Shown here one piece after another: positions 1,721-60,802 of a stretch of 64,000 bases of DNA. Position 1 is the first letter of the stretch, and each line of letters starts with the position of its first letter. The stretch covers positions 124,001 to 188,000 of the forward strand of contig DAHXKG010000001.1 in the NCBI GenBank assembly GCA_027366525.1. The letters run 5' to 3'. A program made the position numbers and the translations under genes. This DNA comes from a candidate division FCPU426 bacterium (GTDB lineage: Bacteria > Oederibacteriota > Muellerivitia > Muellerivitales > DAHXKG01). The notes below the pieces were generated by a model. It was not told the DNA's origin and did not search any database. It saw only the letters and a program-made list of their open reading frames with translations.

Positions 1721-3049
1721 TTAAAACATTAACCATGCTAAAACAGTCAATGTATTATAGCCATTCGTAAACCTAGGCATAAGTGTAGCTCCATTGAAAC
1801 GGTTATATATCGTATATTGAACCGTAAATTTTGTGTTATACCATGGTAAATAGTTCGCCTCAAAAATAGAACCCTCACTATCTGGAATATTGTTAAAATA
1901 CCCAGCGGTTGCAGAATAAAGTTGAGGATCCGAAGTTCCTGTTGTATCAAAATATCCAACGGTTCCACCCACTTCGCGATTATAATAATAAGTAACATCA
2001 CATTTGATTGCCTTAAGATTATCGGTTGGATTGGACACTGTAGTTACCGCGTTTTGGCTTGAATAATTCCAATACTGATTTTCATTAATCCAATTTCCTT
2101 TAATCGTAATGATATTTGTTTTTCCAACATATTGATATTGAGCATCTACTGCGGTATCAACCAATTGATTCGGTACACCAATGACAGCAACACCATTAGG
2201 ATAAGAATTAAAGCTCATTCCAAAAGTTCCCACCTCGATTGAATTTTTTCCAAAATTCTTTGTAAGGGCTAGACGCCAATAAGGCGCTAAACCTTGAATG
2301 TCCGCAGACGCCGGGGTGCCTTGATACGCAGTCCTGTAAGCTGAAACTTCTGCATAAATAGATTGATTCCAAAAAACATAAGCACCTAAGCCTCCAACAC
2401 TTCCTCCCAAGGTATCGATTATAGGATTCATTTGAGGTTCAACTGCAGAACTACCCACCGCATATGGGAATGACCACGCTGGCGTATCATTAAATACATC
2501 CTGAACGGTTGGATTATTATTTGCCGTTAATCCAATCACCAAGTCCCTATTGTCAACTTGAAATCGTTTAGCCCAGCGTAAGTCAGTATTATCCATCGCA
2601 AATGTTCCCGATGTCGGATCATAAGTCGCCTGTATAAATCCACCCATATCCGGAGAAATTCTTCCTGCATAAAAAAAACTAAATTGTGTTGGAAATTCCA
2701 AAGATCCCCGCCCATCTGAACTAGAACTCACAGTCAAACTAGTGGGAGGAGATGTAAAAACATCTGCCAATTGAAACATTACCGAAAGTGGTGGAGTGTT
2801 ATCTATTTCAAGACGAACACCGCCAGAATTACCTCGTGCGCGGATTTGACGAGTTCCGACAGCAGTATAGCCATCTAATTTAAAATTTCTGCCATATGTA
2901 GTAAGTTCAGGAAAAACGGTGTGGCAGGCCGTACATGCTAATCCTGTTTGACGTGCAAAACTAGGAAGCGCCCACACTTTAGGGATAAAAATTATTAATA
3001 ACAACATTAACCACAAATTAAACTTCATTTTATATTGCATATGATCCAT
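1721..3049 (-). CDS. Outer-membrane porin-like protein with an N-terminal haem c site
   Basis: A 442-residue exported protein. After a signal peptide (residues 8-27, cut near VWA) comes PSFARQTGLACTACH, with a single CxxCH at C39/C42/H43. The rest alternates aromatic, Gly, Ser/Thr and Asn residues in short strands and ends ...TVLAWLMF with a terminal Phe, typical of a beta-barrel. Proteins with this PSFARQTG-CxxCH-FPELT start are known in many respiratory Gram-negatives and are usually annotated only as cytochrome or porin. AGGAG six bases upstream supports the ATG at 3049. It is the last gene of the copper/haem island, 39 bases after the CuA-cytochrome gene. I infer that it exposes a haem at the outer membrane; its partner and substrate are unknown. 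Confidence 0.8.
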   Translation of the reverse strand: MDHMQYKMKFNLWLMLLLIIFIPKVWALPSFARQTGLACTACHTVFPELTTYGRNFKLDGYTAVGTRQIRARGNSGGVRLEIDNTPPLSVMFQLADVFTSPPTSLTVSSSSDGRGSLEFPTQFSFFYAGRISPDMGGFIQATYDPTSGTFAMDNTDLRWAKRFQVDNRDLVIGLTANNNPTVQDVFNDTPAWSFPYAVGSSAVEPQMNPIIDTLGGSVGGLGAYVFWNQSIYAEVSAYRTAYQGTPASADIQGLAPYWRLALTKNFGKNSIEVGTFGMSFNSYPNGVAVIGVPNQLVDTAVDAQYQYVGKTNIITIKGNWINENQYWNYSSQNAVTTVSNPTDNLKAIKCDVTYYYNREVGGTVGYFDTTGTSDPQLYSATAGYFNNIPDSEGSIFEANYLPWYNTKFTVQYTIYNRFNGATLMPRFTNGYNTLTVLAWLMF

Positions 3050-3088
3050 TACCAGCTCCTTCTTGATAGAAATAATTTTAATTAAAAA

Positions 3089-4042
3089 TCAATCTCCCCA
3101 ACCTGTATGAACTTGAAATTTTTGTCTTGAAAGTAAATAGACAATAATCGAATTAATTTGATTGGAAGTTAAGAAATTTTTCCAACGTGGCATATAAAGT
3201 GGCGGACTTGGAGCTTTGGTTTTTAATTTCATGGGTATACTACCATATTGAATCACATGAACAATCGCATTATATTGTGTCAAAACTAAAGGCCAATTTG
3301 ATATTTTAGAAATGGGCTTTTTAACTGATAACCCGTGGTTCACTTCAATATTTTTGATAATCCAATGAACTTCCTTCCCATTTTTTAAAAACATCCTTTT
3401 ACCCAATGTATCTAACGCCGGAACTGTTTGATTCGCATAGTTATAATCGTAAATGCCTCCCATGCCATTTATCCCATGGCAAGTAATACATCCTTTAGTA
3501 TTAAATAAATATTTTCCTTCTTGCATCATGTTTTTAAACTGAGTAACTGGTTTGTGACGTACACATTCCGCAAGCATTTGAGAGTTTTTATTTCCAACTG
3601 TTCCGACAATGATTTCCCCGCGCATGTAAAAATGGCATTGACCACAAACATTCGTACAGTAATAAGGATATACACCTGATTTCGTAACCTTAAAACTTAC
3701 TTCCTTAGTATGCCCTGGAATCAGGTCAATAGGGCCAATGTCTAAACTTGGCATATAAAACCGATGTAAAACATCGGCACTTCTCAAAAATAGATGAACC
3801 TCTTCTCCTAGTTGCAAATGAATTCTTGCAGGCTTGAAATGTCCCCGATAATTCCAATCATTCAGTGCTGTAACATCATTTTCTGTCCAAATACCCTGAT
3901 GTGCAACACCTGTTAAGACAATAGTGCGTTCAAGGGGTGCCTGAGATTTCAATAATTGATGTTCATACCAAAATGGAACAATAACAATTCCAGATAATCC
4001 CACTATTGTTAAAATTGTTGCTATACTCTCGCGCAAATTCAT
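3089..4042 (-). CDS. CuA-domain protein fused to a monohaem cytochrome c domain
   Basis: A 317-residue protein with one N-terminal membrane anchor (about residues 8-26), a periplasmic cupredoxin domain (about 60-150) and a C-terminal cytochrome c domain. Expected CuA ligands are H93, C129, C133, H137 and M140 in CTNVCGQCHFYM. The Glu found between the two cysteines in oxidase subunit II is absent (N131), and C136 sits directly before the His ligand. Haem c is attached at C185/C188/H189; M284 or M271 could be the sixth ligand. The order anchor-CuA-haem resembles caa3 oxidase subunit II, but the CuA loop is closer to that of nitrous oxide reductase, and no subunit I is nearby. It probably shuttles electrons in the periplasm. 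It lies 14 bases after the polyferredoxin gene. Confidence 0.85.
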   Translation of the reverse strand: MNLRESIATILTIVGLSGIVIVPFWYEHQLLKSQAPLERTIVLTGVAHQGIWTENDVTALNDWNYRGHFKPARIHLQLGEEVHLFLRSADVLHRFYMPSLDIGPIDLIPGHTKEVSFKVTKSGVYPYYCTNVCGQCHFYMRGEIIVGTVGNKNSQMLAECVRHKPVTQFKNMMQEGKYLFNTKGCITCHGINGMGGIYDYNYANQTVPALDTLGKRMFLKNGKEVHWIIKNIEVNHGLSVKKPISKISNWPLVLTQYNAIVHVIQYGSIPMKLKTKAPSPPLYMPRWKNFLTSNQINSIIVYLLSRQKFQVHTGWGD

Positions 4043-4056
4043 GTTAATCCTCTCAC

Positions 4057-5562
4057 TTAATTTGCATAAAGTTGAACAAATAGAATAACAATCCCAGTCA
4101 TAAATATGGCCATGGGTGCCGCAAATCGAATACTTTCTTTCGCATTTGAATATAATTTTCCAGCCTGCTTAAACGTCGCTTTTAGTGCTAATGCTAATCC
4201 GATGGCCATCAATATGACTTGAACCAGAGGCATCCAATGAGCAAATAACGGCGTCCACGGAATATGAGCTGTGTGAAACAAATTCCATCCCCAGCCGAAC
4301 GGATCAGAAAGTGTCATTAAAATATAACTTCCATTAACAAAAATTAACGGAAGACTAAAAGCAATCCATGCCAATAAGCCCAGCGGAACCAAGGGGTAAA
4401 CCATCATTAAAAATGACTCTTTCCAAGGTTTAGGTTGTCCCCCAGCAAATTTTCGAGAAATCCAATGAACAATTGAAAATAATCCAGGAACCACCACAAC
4501 AGGGATTGACCACAAAGCGATTGCATATTCAATAAATGCAGGAACCCCTAACTGCATATTGGCTAAGCTTTTAAAAATTCCCCATGGACCTAAGTAGATC
4601 ACGCTATACGCCAAAGCTAAAGACAGCATAATAAACGCTTTAAATGCCTCATCATATCCTTTGATTTTTGTATCGGATGCAAATGGCCGTAGTCGAACTG
4701 TCATGTTATCATGTGGGCACGATTTAACACATTCCATACAAAGCCCACAATAATTATTGCGTTCCATTTTGCTTGGAAAATTAAACCAAGGACATCCCCA
4801 GCCTTTTTCATTACCCACCAAACAACTTTTGTCGTGACACTTCAAACAGACATTGTAATCTCTCGATCGCACTTCAGTCATGGAAGCCATGGAATACAAA
4901 CTTAAAAACCCCGAAACTGGACAAATATAATTGCAAAATACTCGTTGTCTAAAAATCAAGGGCAAAATTGTTGCAACAACGATTAATGCTCCAAGAACAA
5001 TTGTGCTAACTAGGGGTCGTGTAAGGTAAAACGCACTAAAAGTACATAATGCCAAAAATGAAAAATCTTGTACCCAAATATTTGACAAAGCTTTGGGCCA
5101 ACGCAGATTAAGCCCCCAGTACCTGTTCAATCCCACTTTTTTGTCTTTAGTTCCCGGACGAGCTAATTTAGGTGTTGTTAGTGAACCTCTTTGCATCCAT
5201 TCACCAAAAAACGGAAATGGACAGATTGTGCACCAAATTCTTGAAAAAAATGGAACCATAATACTAATCAATAGAAACCACCATAAAATCCACACAAACA
5301 CTATTATAATATTCCGGTTGCCGACGGGAGATCCCCATATACCCGCCATTAAAAACATAATAAATAGAATTAAATTCGGGAGGATCACCGCAAATTGAAA
5401 CCACCGTTGCTTTACTAACCACTTTAATTTAGGAAATTTTTGCAATAAATCAATTCGCCAACCCTCTGGAGGTGGAGGCGGAGTTAGTGGTGTTGGAGCA
5501 GATTTCTGAACCACTTCTGGTCCCGTTGGTACATTCGTCGCCGGCTGTATTATTTCGCTCAT
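4057..5562 (-). CDS. NapH/NosR/CcoG-like membrane polyferredoxin
   Basis: A 501-residue integral membrane protein with a Pro-rich cytoplasmic N-terminus and about ten hydrophobic segments. Two membrane-flanking Cys-Pro motifs (CTICP, CNYICP) are followed by a cluster-binding stretch: CLKCHDKSC with a later CPW, then CGLCMECVKSCP, the classical CxxCxxCxxxCP motif of a [4Fe-4S] cluster. This is the layout of NapH, the NosR C-terminal half and CcoG, which move electrons between quinol or cytoplasmic donors and periplasmic partners. No FMN-binding NosR domain is present. It lies between a ferritin-like gene and the CuA-cytochrome gene, so it may be the membrane entry point for electrons into the island. 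Confidence 0.85.
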   Translation of the reverse strand: MSEIIQPATNVPTGPEVVQKSAPTPLTPPPPPEGWRIDLLQKFPKLKWLVKQRWFQFAVILPNLILFIMFLMAGIWGSPVGNRNIIIVFVWILWWFLLISIMVPFFSRIWCTICPFPFFGEWMQRGSLTTPKLARPGTKDKKVGLNRYWGLNLRWPKALSNIWVQDFSFLALCTFSAFYLTRPLVSTIVLGALIVVATILPLIFRQRVFCNYICPVSGFLSLYSMASMTEVRSRDYNVCLKCHDKSCLVGNEKGWGCPWFNFPSKMERNNYCGLCMECVKSCPHDNMTVRLRPFASDTKIKGYDEAFKAFIMLSLALAYSVIYLGPWGIFKSLANMQLGVPAFIEYAIALWSIPVVVVPGLFSIVHWISRKFAGGQPKPWKESFLMMVYPLVPLGLLAWIAFSLPLIFVNGSYILMTLSDPFGWGWNLFHTAHIPWTPLFAHWMPLVQVILMAIGLALALKATFKQAGKLYSNAKESIRFAAPMAIFMTGIVILFVQLYAN

Positions 5563-5571
5563 AATTTCCTC

Positions 5572-6051
5572 TTATAATATTTGTTTCAATTTTTCTTCAA
5601 TCCAATTCGAGTGTGAATTTTCTAATTCAGATAACTCTTTAAAAAGTTTTGAAAGCTCTGAATTTTTAACTTTTTGTGATGCGTTTAAATAAAATTGAAA
5701 AGCCCTTTTTTCTGCCGCTAAAGCCAATTGATAAATTTTTTTAGACTTCAAGCTATCAAAAATTAAATGTTCGGAATCATCTATATCAAATGCTTCCACA
5801 ACTTCTTCCACATCAAATTCAGTAATTTCTGGAATTTTGGCATCCCCAAAAAGATCTGTGAATTTTTTTGAAAGAACTGCTTCATGCAACGATTCTTCTT
5901 TGGATAATTCTTTAAATTTTAGTACAACATCTTCATCATATCCTTCGAACATTTCAGAAAAACTAATAAAAGCTTTTTGATTTTCTTTTTCAATATGAAT
6001 AGCTAAAGCCAGTATTTCCATTGGAGAAAGCTCTTGAATGTTTTTTTTCAT
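5572..6051 (-). CDS. Rubrerythrin-like ferritin-fold di-iron protein (no rubredoxin domain)
   Basis: A 159-residue helical protein with the paired pattern of ferritin-like di-iron sites: a Glu in HIEKENQKAF, ExxH in EESLHEA, a Glu in AAEKRAFQFY and a second ExxH in ELENSHSNW. The C-terminal rubredoxin domain of classical rubrerythrin is missing. The start is taken at 6051 because its ATG overlaps the upstream stop in an ATGA, implying translational coupling; an in-frame ATG at 6087 would lie inside the preceding gene. There is no signal peptide, so it is cytoplasmic. Peroxide reduction or iron handling are family roles; why it sits inside a copper operon is unclear. Confidence 0.8.
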   Translation of the reverse strand: MKKNIQELSPMEILALAIHIEKENQKAFISFSEMFEGYDEDVVLKFKELSKEESLHEAVLSKKFTDLFGDAKIPEITEFDVEEVVEAFDIDDSEHLIFDSLKSKKIYQLALAAEKRAFQFYLNASQKVKNSELSKLFKELSELENSHSNWIEEKLKQIL

Positions 6052-6572
6052 AACTGAACTCTTTCTGAAGACTCTGATGTGGGCCATACTAAAATGAAGC
6101 TTGCTAGTAAAATACCCAGCATCAAGCCTATGGCTTGATAAAAGAGGCTATTCGGTTTTACGATCATTACACCCATCATAAATGGATGAAGATAGCCGCA
6201 CGTAATCGAACACCGATATCGAAATTTCCCACTCTTGCTAGCCGTAAAAACAATACTCTTGGCTGGAAAATATTTTGAAGAAATCAAAGGATGTTGAACC
6301 TGAATTTCAGTAATACCAGGACGTATAATCGCATCCGTATCATAACCCTCTAAATAGAACCCATGGGTTACGTCTTTAGACGATAAATAAAGATGTACGC
6401 GATCCCCTTGATTAACTACGATTGTATTGGGAGTATAAAAAAACCTCTGCGCCACAATATGGAAATATACGTCTTTAGGCTTGATTAAATGCGAAATCAA
6501 AAAATTGGGGAGAATGGTCCCTACCACAATCACTAAAATCGCCCCAGCCCATTTTCGATATTTTAATTTCAT
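6048..6572 (-). CDS. Small membrane-anchored CuA-type cupredoxin
   Basis: A 174-residue protein with a membrane segment at each end (about residues 8-28 and 145-163) and a periplasmic cupredoxin domain between. All side-chain ligands of a binuclear CuA site are present: H70, then C121, C125, H129 and M132 in CSITCGYLHPFM. As in the other CuA protein of this operon, the Glu between the cysteines of oxidase subunit II is absent (I123). It resembles a minimal oxidase subunit II but has no linked subunit I. It lies 6 bases after the blue-copper gene and overlaps the ferritin-like gene by 4 bases. Confidence 0.82.
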   Translation of the reverse strand: MKLKYRKWAGAILVIVVGTILPNFLISHLIKPKDVYFHIVAQRFFYTPNTIVVNQGDRVHLYLSSKDVTHGFYLEGYDTDAIIRPGITEIQVQHPLISSKYFPAKSIVFTASKSGKFRYRCSITCGYLHPFMMGVMIVKPNSLFYQAIGLMLGILLASFILVWPTSESSERVQL

Positions 6573-6578
6573 TTAATT

Positions 6579-7256
6579 TCACTCATGAATATTAATATTA
6601 AAAACTGTGGTTTTCCCTGAAACAATGTGAACGTGTTGTCGACGAGCTGATAAATCATGATTCCATACTCGAACAACATAGTTTCCAGCCGGAATATTCC
6701 CAATCAAATACTTGGCATATTGTTGTTTTAATTTGTAATTAGTAATTAAATCTGATTTCGTAAAGTAGGGGGTGTTGACTACGATAATATAGGCTAGCAT
6801 TTGAGGATGCAGACTACATAGAATTGTTTTGGTTCCATCAGACTTAAATGTATGATCGCGTGCAACTCCTTTGCCAAAAATCCCAAGATCAAAATCACCT
6901 GGATCCATGACATCATGTTTTACAGTATCATCATTCAAAAATTTGACAGTTGAACCCTTTTGAATAATAAGTACATGAGGAAAAAAGTTCAATTTTTTTT
7001 GAATCATTACAGCCGTTGCTTTCGGTTCCAGAAATTTTGGCGGGTGAACAGGCAATAAATAAACCACTACTGCTCGATTACTTCTCGGACCTTTTGTATT
7101 AACATAAGCACGTTTTACGTGTATCATCCCAGTAATTGAACCAGAAGTTCCTGCAGCAAAGCTCAATTGGCTTATACCAAAAACCATTGTTAAAATAAGT
7201 AATAATTCATTTAAAATAAATAGTTTTTTTGCATTCATTTTTCTATTTAATTTCAT
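6579..7256 (-). CDS. Exported blue-copper (plastocyanin-like) protein
   Basis: A 225-residue protein with a signal peptide (about residues 10-35, ending SFAAG). It has a central cupredoxin domain with probable type 1 copper ligands H114, C147, H150 and M153 (KHDVMDP, CSLHPQM), and a C-terminal beta domain ending in a carboxypeptidase-regulatory-like strand pattern. Such proteins are soluble periplasmic one-electron carriers. It is the first gene of the island: AAGGAG lies about 7 bases before the ATG and an FNR-type promoter lies upstream. It is probably the mobile carrier linking the two CuA proteins or an outside partner. Confidence 0.8.
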   Translation of the reverse strand: MKLNRKMNAKKLFILNELLLILTMVFGISQLSFAAGTSGSITGMIHVKRAYVNTKGPRSNRAVVVYLLPVHPPKFLEPKATAVMIQKKLNFFPHVLIIQKGSTVKFLNDDTVKHDVMDPGDFDLGIFGKGVARDHTFKSDGTKTILCSLHPQMLAYIIVVNTPYFTKSDLITNYKLKQQYAKYLIGNIPAGNYVVRVWNHDLSARRQHVHIVSGKTTVFNINIHE

Positions 7257-7344
7257 AACACTGTCTCCTTCGCTTTAGTTACTCTAAAATGCTTTATTTA
7301 CTGTCAACTATTACTGACTTTATTCACTAACATTCTATGGCATC

Positions 7345-7385
7345 ATTGTAGTAACTTTGGTTTATTTATATATGATTTAAATCAT
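7345..7385 (-). promoter_or_regulatory. FNR-type box and promoter of the copper/haem island
   Basis: A perfect 14-base palindrome, ATGATTTAAATCAT, at 7372-7385 contains the TGAT-N4-ATCA core recognised by FNR/ANR/NNR-type regulators. Downstream on the minus strand, TACAAT at 7350-7345 is a good -10 element. A start about 8 bases beyond it (near 7337-7338) places the box centre at about -41, the class II activator position. There is no clear -35 element, as expected for an activated promoter. The leader would be about 80 bases. Confidence 0.65.
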
Positions 7386-7456
7386 GATATTTGAAAATTT
7401 AATTTCGGGCGAAATATTTAACAATGCTCTTTATAATTTATTGCAATCGCTTTGAG

Positions 7457-7480
7457 AAAAAAAACTCACGCTATCTTGAG
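7457..7480 (-). terminator. Probable intrinsic terminator of the AttH-like gene
   Basis: Immediately after the stop of the lipocalin-like gene the minus strand reads CTCAAG-ATAG-CGTGAG, a six-pair stem with one mismatch and a four-base loop, followed by eight T. The stem is short but the T tract is strong, and the position between two separately promoted operons is right. Confidence 0.55.
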
Positions 7481-7481
7481 A

Positions 7482-54606: not shown

Positions 54607-55215
54607 CTAATTCAGCAATCGCTTCAAATCTTGTTTCAGAAATTCAAAATTTTTCTTAATACAAGCATCATAATATCCACGAATACGCCCTTGAGAGTCA
54701 ACTAGAATAAAGCTCGAGCTATGAACAAAACATTTTTTGGATGCTTGCGAATCCACGGCTGCCGCCACTTTAAAACCATTTTGTGCAATCTTATAAATTT
54801 GCTTCGCCGATCCAGTCAAAAAAAACCATTTTTTTAAATTCGCATCATATTTTTTAGAATACTGATCCAATATTGCCGGAGTATCATGATGAGGATTTAC
54901 TGTAAATGTGATCAGCCGAAAGTTGGTTTTATTTTGAAATTCTTTTTGAAGTTGAGACATCTCTGAAGTTAAAACTGGGCTAGTGCCCTGTCCTTGCGTT
55001 GTAATAAAATCTGCTACCCAAACTCTGCCCTGAAGTTGATTACTTGAAAAATGTTGATTTTTTTCATTTAAAAGCGAGAAAAAAGGCGCGGGACCAATAA
55101 CGGGTAATCGACCCAATGAAGGGCCTGTAACCATAACACCAATCCAAGCTCCAAATGCAATAAAAAATGCAGCTAAAACACATAATTGAATCCAGCGACT
55201 AGGGGATTTTTTCAT
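54607..55215 (-). CDS. SCO-like protein lacking both copper-binding cysteines
   Basis: A 202-residue membrane-anchored thioredoxin-fold protein (anchor about 11-31). It aligns without gaps to its neighbour at 55219-55824 through residue 79, but the two CxxxC positions are G75 and S79. The His ligand is kept at H165. An extra Cys (C162) is three residues before it. It cannot bind copper in the usual SCO way. It may be a chaperone, a dimer partner or a new redox protein using C162. It is the last of three SCO genes and 20 bases before the DUF420 gene. Confidence 0.85.
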   Translation of the reverse strand: MKKSPSRWIQLCVLAAFFIAFGAWIGVMVTGPSLGRLPVIGPAPFFSLLNEKNQHFSSNQLQGRVWVADFITTQGQGTSPVLTSEMSQLQKEFQNKTNFRLITFTVNPHHDTPAILDQYSKKYDANLKKWFFLTGSAKQIYKIAQNGFKVAAAVDSQASKKCFVHSSSFILVDSQGRIRGYYDACIKKNFEFLKQDLKRLLN

Positions 55216-55218
55216 AAT

Positions 55219-55824
55219 TTATTTTCTCAACAAGGTTTGAATATCCATTTGTAATTTATGAAAATCTTTTGGCCACAACGGATCATAATATCCACAAATG
55301 TGTCCAGTTTGATCGACTAAAATAAATTGGCTGCTATGAACAAATGCATTTGTTTTAGAATTATACGCATCTGTTACTTTAAATCCATTCTGTGCAATAG
55401 AATCAATTTTACGACGTGCGCCTGTTAAAAAAAACCATGTTTTTAGATTTGCATGATGCAATTTTGAAAATTTTTTAAGTATCGCCGGAGTATCGTATTT
55501 GGGATCCACGGTCAATGATACAAATAGGACCTTTGAATTATTATGAAATAAATTCTGTAATTGTTCCATTTTTTCGGTAATCAATGGGCAGGTATCTTTG
55601 CACTTTGTATAAATAAAGTCGACGATCCAAATCCGATGTTTTAGCTTTCGACTTGAAAAAACATGACCCTGCTCATCAATTAATGAAAATGAAGGCGCTT
55701 GGCCTAAATTAGGTAATACCTGTGCCGGTTGCGTTGGCATTTGAAAAAATATCCAAATACCGATGCCAATTATTAAAGCACCTAAAATGCTCAACTGAAA
55801 GCTCCGGACGTTTCGCTTTTCCAT
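55219..55824 (-). CDS. SCO1/SenC copper chaperone (complete ligand set)
   Basis: A 201-residue protein with an N-terminal anchor (about 10-28) and a periplasmic thioredoxin fold. The copper site is complete: C75 and C79 in YTKCKDTCP and H163 in FVHSSQF. SCO proteins deliver or reduce copper at the CuA site of oxidase subunit II. It is the middle member of the trio, 3 bases upstream of its cysteine-less relative. Confidence 0.9.
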   Translation of the reverse strand: MEKRNVRSFQLSILGALIIGIGIWIFFQMPTQPAQVLPNLGQAPSFSLIDEQGHVFSSRKLKHRIWIVDFIYTKCKDTCPLITEKMEQLQNLFHNNSKVLFVSLTVDPKYDTPAILKKFSKLHHANLKTWFFLTGARRKIDSIAQNGFKVTDAYNSKTNAFVHSSQFILVDQTGHICGYYDPLWPKDFHKLQMDIQTLLRK

Positions 55825-55837
55825 CTATTTCCCAAAT

Positions 55838-56404
55838 CTACAACAAATGTTGAATATGCTGAATTAACGATTTAACTTCTTGCGTTGAAGTTCCATTAAA
55901 AACACCTATAACTTGATCATGTGCATTAATTAAAATGAGATCTGGGCTCATAAAAAAATTCCCGAGTGGCTTTTTAGTAATTCTAAAACTTTTGCGCGCT
56001 AACATATCTATTTTTTGAATCGGACCTGTTAAAAAATACCATGTTTTCAAATTCGCATGATACCGTTTTGCATACGATTTCATTAAAGCATTATTTCCGT
56101 CAATTACAAACGAGACAAATTTTAGATTCGGGTATTGGTGAAATTTTAACTGCAATTGATGAATAACCCCACTGAGCGTTGCACAATCTTCCACACACCC
56201 TAAATAAATAAAATCTGCAACCCATACATTCGATTTGAGTTGTTGACTTGAAAATGATTGGCCACCAAATGTTTGTAGTTTAAAAGAATGTATTATCCTA
56301 TTATTGTATTCTTTTCTCACTTCTGCTTTCATTCCCATTGCCACTAACGCCAAACTTAATAAGATTACTCCGATACTAATTATTTGAAAATTATTTTTTT
56401 TCAT
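55838..56404 (-). CDS. SCO-like protein with CxxxC but Met in place of the copper His
   Basis: A 188-residue membrane-anchored protein (anchor about 6-24) of the same fold as the next two genes. It keeps C70 and C74 (LGCVEDC), but the position aligned with the SCO His is M152 (FFMSPDLILIN). It could still bind Cu(I) through two thiols and a thioether, or act as a thiol reductant for CuA cysteines. It lies 3 bases after the ABC permease. Confidence 0.82.
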   Translation of the reverse strand: MKKNNFQIISIGVILLSLALVAMGMKAEVRKEYNNRIIHSFKLQTFGGQSFSSQQLKSNVWVADFIYLGCVEDCATLSGVIHQLQLKFHQYPNLKFVSFVIDGNNALMKSYAKRYHANLKTWYFLTGPIQKIDMLARKSFRITKKPLGNFFMSPDLILINAHDQVIGVFNGTSTQEVKSLIQHIQHLL

Positions 56405-60022: not shown

Positions 60023-60802
60023 TTATTTTTTAGATGAACTAGAGTTAAATGTAAAGGTTACTCCTTGAGTTTGGCCGCTCGTTATCGTAATTGATTGCGA
60101 TTGAGTCCCATATGCTTCCTGCCAAGCAGTTAACGTATACGTCCCAGCAGGCAACTGGGTGATTTTAAAGTGACCCATCGAATTGCTTACGCCATAGAAC
60201 GGATTTGAAACCACGCCAATATAGCCCCGCATCCAACTATGGACATCACACTTAATCGGAATCATTATTTCCGGTTTAGAAAAAGTTTCTGTTGTTGACA
60301 TCCCTTGAGTTGGTTGAGCAACATTAAACGGTGCATTAATTTTTGGCATGGCATGCACATTATGCAAGGTGGCATCCTCATTAATAATATCTAAAGGTTG
60401 ATTGACCATCATCCCCAAAACATGTGGTATATACATACATCCCTTTTGAAGTAGTGTGACTGGTGTGGATGGAGATGCATAGGTTCCAGTTATGCCTTTT
60501 GATACGTAAACAAATACATTTGCCAACCCACCGTTTTTCCCTACTACAACGGTTTGAGCATGAACTGGTTTTGAATGAGCCGCCACACAAATCGGGTCTG
60601 CGCCCATATGAATAATTGGTTCAACCGGAGGCTTACCCTTAAGCATTACAATTCCTTGAATTATTGCCGTTCCAAGTTTTCCTGTCGGTTTTGCTGTTTG
60701 ACCAATTGATCCACTGAGACCCTGATTCGAGGACCCTCCACATCCAACTATTGCCATAACCACTAAACTTAAAGTCAAAAAATAAATTTTCTTACCTGTC
60801 AT
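60023..60802 (-). CDS. Blue-copper lipoprotein with a C-terminal beta-sandwich
   Basis: A 259-residue lipoprotein with a lipobox ending AIVGC (C21). A cupredoxin domain has probable type 1 copper ligands H147 or H150, C185, H188 and M191 (CDVHSWM). A C-terminal carboxypeptidase-regulatory-like strand set (GHFKITQLPAGTYTLTAWQEAYG) follows. It is probably a membrane-tethered one-electron carrier for the cytochrome b/octahaem complex, whose gene ends 28 bases upstream. Confidence 0.85.
   Translation of the reverse strand: MTGKKIYFLTLSLVVMAIVGCGGSSNQGLSGSIGQTAKPTGKLGTAIIQGIVMLKGKPPVEPIIHMGADPICVAAHSKPVHAQTVVVGKNGGLANVFVYVSKGITGTYASPSTPVTLLQKGCMYIPHVLGMMVNQPLDIINEDATLHNVHAMPKINAPFNVAQPTQGMSTTETFSKPEIMIPIKCDVHSWMRGYIGVVSNPFYGVSNSMGHFKITQLPAGTYTLTAWQEAYGTQSQSITITSGQTQGVTFTFNSSSSKK

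Follow-up and report, generated by a model that had tools for sequence, protein, structure and literature searches.

The locus studied here lies in a window of 64,000 nt from a candidate division FCPU426 bacterium, and contains six ORFs that are all located on the minus strand and form one predicted leftward operon. The first gene (6579-7256) codes for a periplasmic cupredoxin with an N-terminal signal and a predicted type 1 copper site (CSLHPQM). It is followed by genes for a two-helix CuA protein (6048-6572), a rubrerythrin or ferritin-like di-iron protein (5572-6051), a NapH/NosR-like membrane polyferredoxin (4057-5562), and a membrane-anchored CuA-cytochrome c fusion similar to caa3 subunit IIc (3089-4042). 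The last gene (1721-3049) codes for a Cyc2-family fusion of a monohaem cytochrome and a β-barrel porin, with the motif ALPSFARQTGLACTACHTVFPEL. From the porin gene to the cupredoxin gene, the spacings are 39, 14, 9, -4, and 6 nt. The ORF list starts the rubrerythrin gene at 6087, giving a 40-nt overlap with the CuA gene, but the rubrerythrin orthologues begin at the ATG at 6051, so that the true overlap is probably ATGA, of 4 nt. The intergenic region 5' of the operon (7257-7481, no strand) is followed by a CrtC-like gene, whose position beside the operon is not conserved. Promoter and terminator scans gave nothing in excess of shuffled sequences. These results agree with the sequence-only reading, which had described a six-gene leftward operon with short gaps or overlaps, and the domains that it had assigned to the six genes were each backed by Pfam or PDB profiles.

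Products of the six genes

The ligand motifs were complete in both CuA proteins (CTNVCGQCHFYM and CSITCGYLHPFM, the latter in the two-helix protein, with a His upstream). The two-helix protein has transmembrane helices at residues 12-30 and 144-162, scored 22.3 bits against Pfam COX2, just above the cut-off of 22, and matched Thermus CuA/ba3 subunit II and its engineered variants in the PDB profile search (1e-11 to 4e-15). The CuA-cytochrome c protein matched Pfam COX2 (7.7e-12) and Cytochrom_C (9.5e-7), and its top PDB match was 2yev_B, a CuA-cytochrome c oxidase subunit 2 (3e-11). Its CuA site overlaps a CxxCH motif (CGQCH), so that haem could possibly replace CuA at this site. A CGxCH inside the CuA motif was found in the FCPU426 proteins and in loci L045, L048, and L049, in which haem attachment is conceivable. 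The orthologues in L032 and L047 keep all CuA ligands without the extra Cys, suggesting that the CuA site of the fusion is probably ancestral. The cupredoxin is conserved in the four sister operons; it scored below the Pfam cut-off (Copper-bind, 0.0052), and its PDB profile pointed to the cupredoxin domain of NirK (E 6e-10), with weaker matches to amicyanins. A second cupredoxin gene in the window (60023-60802), 26% identical to that of the operon, lies next to the gene of a multihaem cytochrome c (934 aa). Genes for a Rieske protein and cytochrome b are located nearby, just past the window end. The CuA ligands are shared with subunit II of haem-copper oxidases (caa3 IIc, ba3), and the CuA-cytochrome c fusion is arranged as in 2yev_B. 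However, this locus has no subunit I, III, or IV, and two distinct CuA proteins are adjacent.

The polyferredoxin matched Pfam Fer4_5, and was 71-76% identical to its counterparts in the sister operons. Its scores against the NapH families were 27-28 bits, far below the curated cut-offs of 213 and 234. Sequence searches of the PDB returned short ferredoxin matches only, and a plasmid search gave only distant relatives with at most 29% identity. Like the polyferredoxins of NapGH and NosR systems, to which the weak NapH match also points, it is a multi-helix membrane protein with CxxCP, CxxxCP, and 4Fe-4S motifs. In contrast to that type, it has more helices, and CuA subunits replace NapG or the FMN domain; no NapG partner is present among the six operon genes. 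No intramembrane haem ligands able to carry electrons over the bilayer were recognised, a point against the electron path proposed below.

In Desulfobacterota and Chloroflexi loci, the polyferredoxin and the first CuA domain form a single fusion protein. The two-helix CuA domain forms the N-terminal part of the product in L050-L054, L057, and L061 (for example, L050:2380-4305 and L057:9458-11371). The structure model of the L050 fusion was confident (pLDDT 87.7, pTM 0.87), and the best matches in a fold search with the fused form fell on its CuA domain. The loop charge pattern suggests that the CuA domain lies outside and the Fe-S loops inside. These natural fusions may also be of use for structural work.

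The porin had been described as a monohaem porin, which holds, but its close agreement with the published description of Cyc2 had been missed. Cyc2 proteins are recognised by a single CXXCH with AXPXFAR[Q/K][T/Y] upstream and PXL downstream, and by a length of at least 365 aa (PMC8406198). The window porin is 442 aa long, and contains a single CXXCH with the upstream motif in ALPSFARQTGLACTACH (ALPSFARQTG-xx-CxxCH-xxx-PEL) and PXL four residues downstream (CHTVFPEL). Its model has 16 strands at low confidence (mean pLDDT 52.5) and was left out of haem placement; its Foldseek matches were porins. The motifs and the length are common to Cyc2 (PMC8406198) and the window porin, and the low-confidence model would agree with the 16-strand outer-membrane porin of that family. 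The nearest named homologues (32-41% identity) were from Caballeronia (41%), Methylocystis, Ideonella, and plasmids of Acidithiobacillus and Acidiphilium. In the five neighbourhoods read, small c-type cytochrome genes lie beside or near the porin homologues, an arrangement that resembles cyc2-cyc1. The function of the Cluster 3 Cyc2 homologues is the most uncertain (Keffer et al.). The rus operon joins cyc2 with genes for a cupredoxin and CuA (PMC10654088), a combination that is shared by the operon described here. However, coxA-coxC-coxD and rusticyanin are absent from this operon and from the four sister operons, a polyferredoxin and a rubrerythrin are present, and the gene order is unrelated. 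Unlike the described Cyc2 systems, the operon of the window porin holds a CuA-polyferredoxin module, and a Cyc2 role is here predicted from sequence.

Distribution and neighbours of the CuA-polyferredoxin core

The same six-gene order was found in four other FCPU426 genomes, in one of which (G005) the porin gene is cut by a contig end. Searching 84,980 species genomes with an alignment of the polyferredoxin yielded 80 loci, and in 34 of them (L028-L061) the polyferredoxin belongs to a core that also comprises the two-helix CuA protein and a second CuA protein. These loci come from about eight phyla including one archaeon, and cover FCPU426, Myxococcota/Deltaproteobacteria, Planctomycetota, Acidobacteria, Omnitrophota, Desulfobacterales, Syntrophobacterales, Chloroflexi, and the archaeon Hecatella; core partners were absent mostly where contigs end. 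Together with the window (35 rows), the 34 loci form one clade on a long branch (SH-aLRT 100, quick method, midpoint root). At least one CuA gene adjoins the polyferredoxin gene, or a CuA domain is fused to it, in all 34 clade loci and in none of the 46 distant loci, where cupredoxin and Cyc2-like genes were not found either. The conserved order that the sequence-only reading had proposed to look for was recovered in full in four other FCPU426 genomes and as a core in 34 loci, compared with none of the 46 distant controls, which indicates an arrangement beyond chance. Among the papers searched, few of them subscription papers or bioRxiv preprints, no description of a CuA-polyferredoxin module was found. 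Genes for a histidine kinase and a regulator of the NtrC type are frequent neighbours of the module outside FCPU426 (L033-L049), as assigned by similarity and inspection rather than by Pfam. Two Rieske genes in locus L027 (2623-3387 and 6113-6913) are near-identical over their C-terminal two thirds and differ in their N-termini, a pattern suggestive of recent duplication or gene conversion.

Cyc2-type porins were present in 12 module loci besides the window, and those outside FCPU426 carry the motif AIP/AVP-x-FAR[K/R]Y. Haem-copper subunit I (COX1) was found in none of the 34 loci, several of which are shortened by contig ends, and NosZ or a molybdopterin enzyme was found in nine. Constant placement beside an oxidase or reductase gene, which would have spoken against the earlier interpretation, was thus not seen. 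Synteny without adjacent coxA held throughout, while the same expectation for nosZ failed in two Acidobacteria with closely related sequences (L041 and L043), where NosZ, full or frame-split, lies directly past the module. Nitrous oxide reductase systems share the CuA domain and in these two cases directly adjoin the core, whereas the host has neither NosZ nor a CuZ domain. Molybdopterin enzymes were found in seven loci (L038, L046, L050, L051, L057, L059, and L060), octahaem cytochromes in L052 and L061, and 12-haem ExtM-like cytochromes in L034 and L055. In the Hecatella locus (L060, 9291-17520), three genes lie behind the core, coding for a molybdopterin protein of the DMSO-reductase-II type, an Fe-S subunit, and a TorD-like protein. 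In two Omnitrophota loci (L046 and L059), genes for a molybdenum enzyme and a Cyc2-like porin belong to the same cluster.

Polyferredoxin and porin occur together in 5 of the 9 genomes of the order. Completeness is 97.5% for the host genome and at least 94% for each of the other four module-bearing genomes. Two other genomes (G002 and G004, at least 97% complete) have neither polyferredoxin nor porin, and the operon is thus accessory. The sequence-only reading was correct that no coxA or nosZ lies nearby, though the genome has one haem-copper oxidase, a complete aa3 type with its own CuA subunit, on another contig. In the host genome, NosZ searches gave partial CuA-domain matches only, none above the cut-off; bd oxidase and RuBisCO gave no match, and NuoG was the only molybdopterin-domain protein above the cut-off, with one partial match below it. 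An origin of the CuA genes as a NosZ remnant was rejected because the match is confined to the CuA region, and an orphan oxidase fragment was rejected because the aa3 operon has its own subunit II and COX1 is missing from the 34 loci.

Proposed electron path and its direction

The gene content, motifs, synteny, common clade, and gene fusions described above are observed, and they make it about an even prospect that the operon codes for a trans-envelope electron chain working on a NapGH/NosR-like principle, with outward as the likeliest direction. The synteny, the monophyletic clade, and the CuA-polyferredoxin fusions likewise support the earlier proposal of a unit in which CuA carriers connect a membrane Fe-S protein with a monohaem porin of the outer membrane. 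We infer the cofactor loading, the order of the partners, the direction, and the substrate, as well as the topology, for which the charge rule and one structure model were used. The polyferredoxin would be an inner-membrane protein whose [4Fe-4S] motifs face the cytoplasm, and the two-helix CuA protein would be its periplasmic partner subunit. Electrons from quinol or a cytoplasmic donor would pass to the high-potential CuA, be ferried across the periplasm by the CuA-cytochrome c and the cupredoxin, and reach an external acceptor through the Cyc2-type cytochrome-porin as the outer-membrane end of the chain. In other lineages, the same core may supply NosZ or molybdenum reductases; the core is constant, and the endpoints vary between lineages.

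Outward flow is slightly favoured, because NosZ is a reductase and electrons usually run downhill from Fe-S centres to CuA. This preference draws on usual cofactor potentials and on the neighbours in other lineages, where the NosZ and molybdopterin enzymes fit a donor role of the core to terminal reductases. The two Omnitrophota clusters, which pair a Cyc2-like porin with a molybdenum enzyme, are compatible with either direction.

Inward flow is the main rival, and a serious one, because the Cyc2 proteins tested so far are Fe(II) oxidases. For the same reason, the earlier statement that the operon has no catalytic subunit is doubtful and may be wrong. In an uptake system, the porin would oxidise Fe(II) or another external donor, the cupredoxin and the CuA-cytochrome c would supply the aa3 oxidase with electrons, and the polyferredoxin and CuA would deliver part of these to quinone or the cytoplasm. 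The gene content shared with the rus operon and the aa3 enzyme as the sole haem-copper oxidase found in the host, with no bd oxidase found, are consistent with such a role. However, the potential of CuA is usually about +0.25 V, and transfer from CuA to Fe-S centres or quinone would be uphill, with no coupling machinery seen. In addition, RuBisCO was found in none of the module-bearing genomes of the order, and the core is also present without Cyc2, including in the archaeon. Taken together, electron uptake is possible but rather unlikely.

An iron/copper or oxidative-stress system, in which the rubrerythrin and copper proteins would scavenge oxidants or handle metals and the porin would be a metal channel, seems improbable. 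The rubrerythrin gene product matched Pfam Rubrerythrin (3e-11) and, below the cut-off, the MbfA N-terminal ferritin-like domain (2.6e-17), and copper proteins occur throughout. However, rubrerythrin was found in only nine loci, from FCPU426 and Acidobacteria, so most module loci lack it while the CuA-polyferredoxin core is constant, and the six genes include no metal exporter. The rubrerythrin probably has an accessory role related to iron or oxidative stress. Three tandem genes for Sco-like proteins lie by an ABC transporter in the window (54607-56404), with CtaB and COX15 genes next to them. NosR-like proteins are known to have roles beyond electron supply, and the distance between this group of genes and the operon is 47-52 kb, but a redox factor for the assembly or repair of aa3 oxidase or other cuproproteins, in place of a respiratory chain, is very unlikely, as G002 and G004 have COX1 yet no module, and the module is beside COX1 in none of the 34 loci.

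Returning to the trans-envelope chain, the CuA-polyferredoxin core looks like an undescribed route for electrons across the cell envelope. Somewhat short of an even chance, we tentatively propose a CuA-coupled polyferredoxin, a quinol or ferredoxin : CuA oxidoreductase not described before, as an exchangeable module of bacteria and archaea. Depending on the lineage, its partner would be NosZ, a molybdenum enzyme, a multihaem cytochrome, or a Cyc2-type outer-membrane cytochrome-porin, so that some Cyc2-like proteins would take part in outward respiration rather than in iron oxidation. Haem-copper oxidases and nitrous oxide reductase are the main enzymes from which CuA is known. In the present loci, which come from bacteria and one archaeon, CuA is associated with a polyferredoxin, in several lineages through gene fusion. 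As a candidate that can be tested, the core would link quinone to the periplasm and bypass both bc1 and NapC. A Cyc2 homologue in a metagenome may not imply iron oxidation, which bears on the uncertain function of the homologues outside known iron oxidisers, and the CuA-polyferredoxin neighbourhood may provide a genomic criterion for separating groups of Cyc2 proteins.
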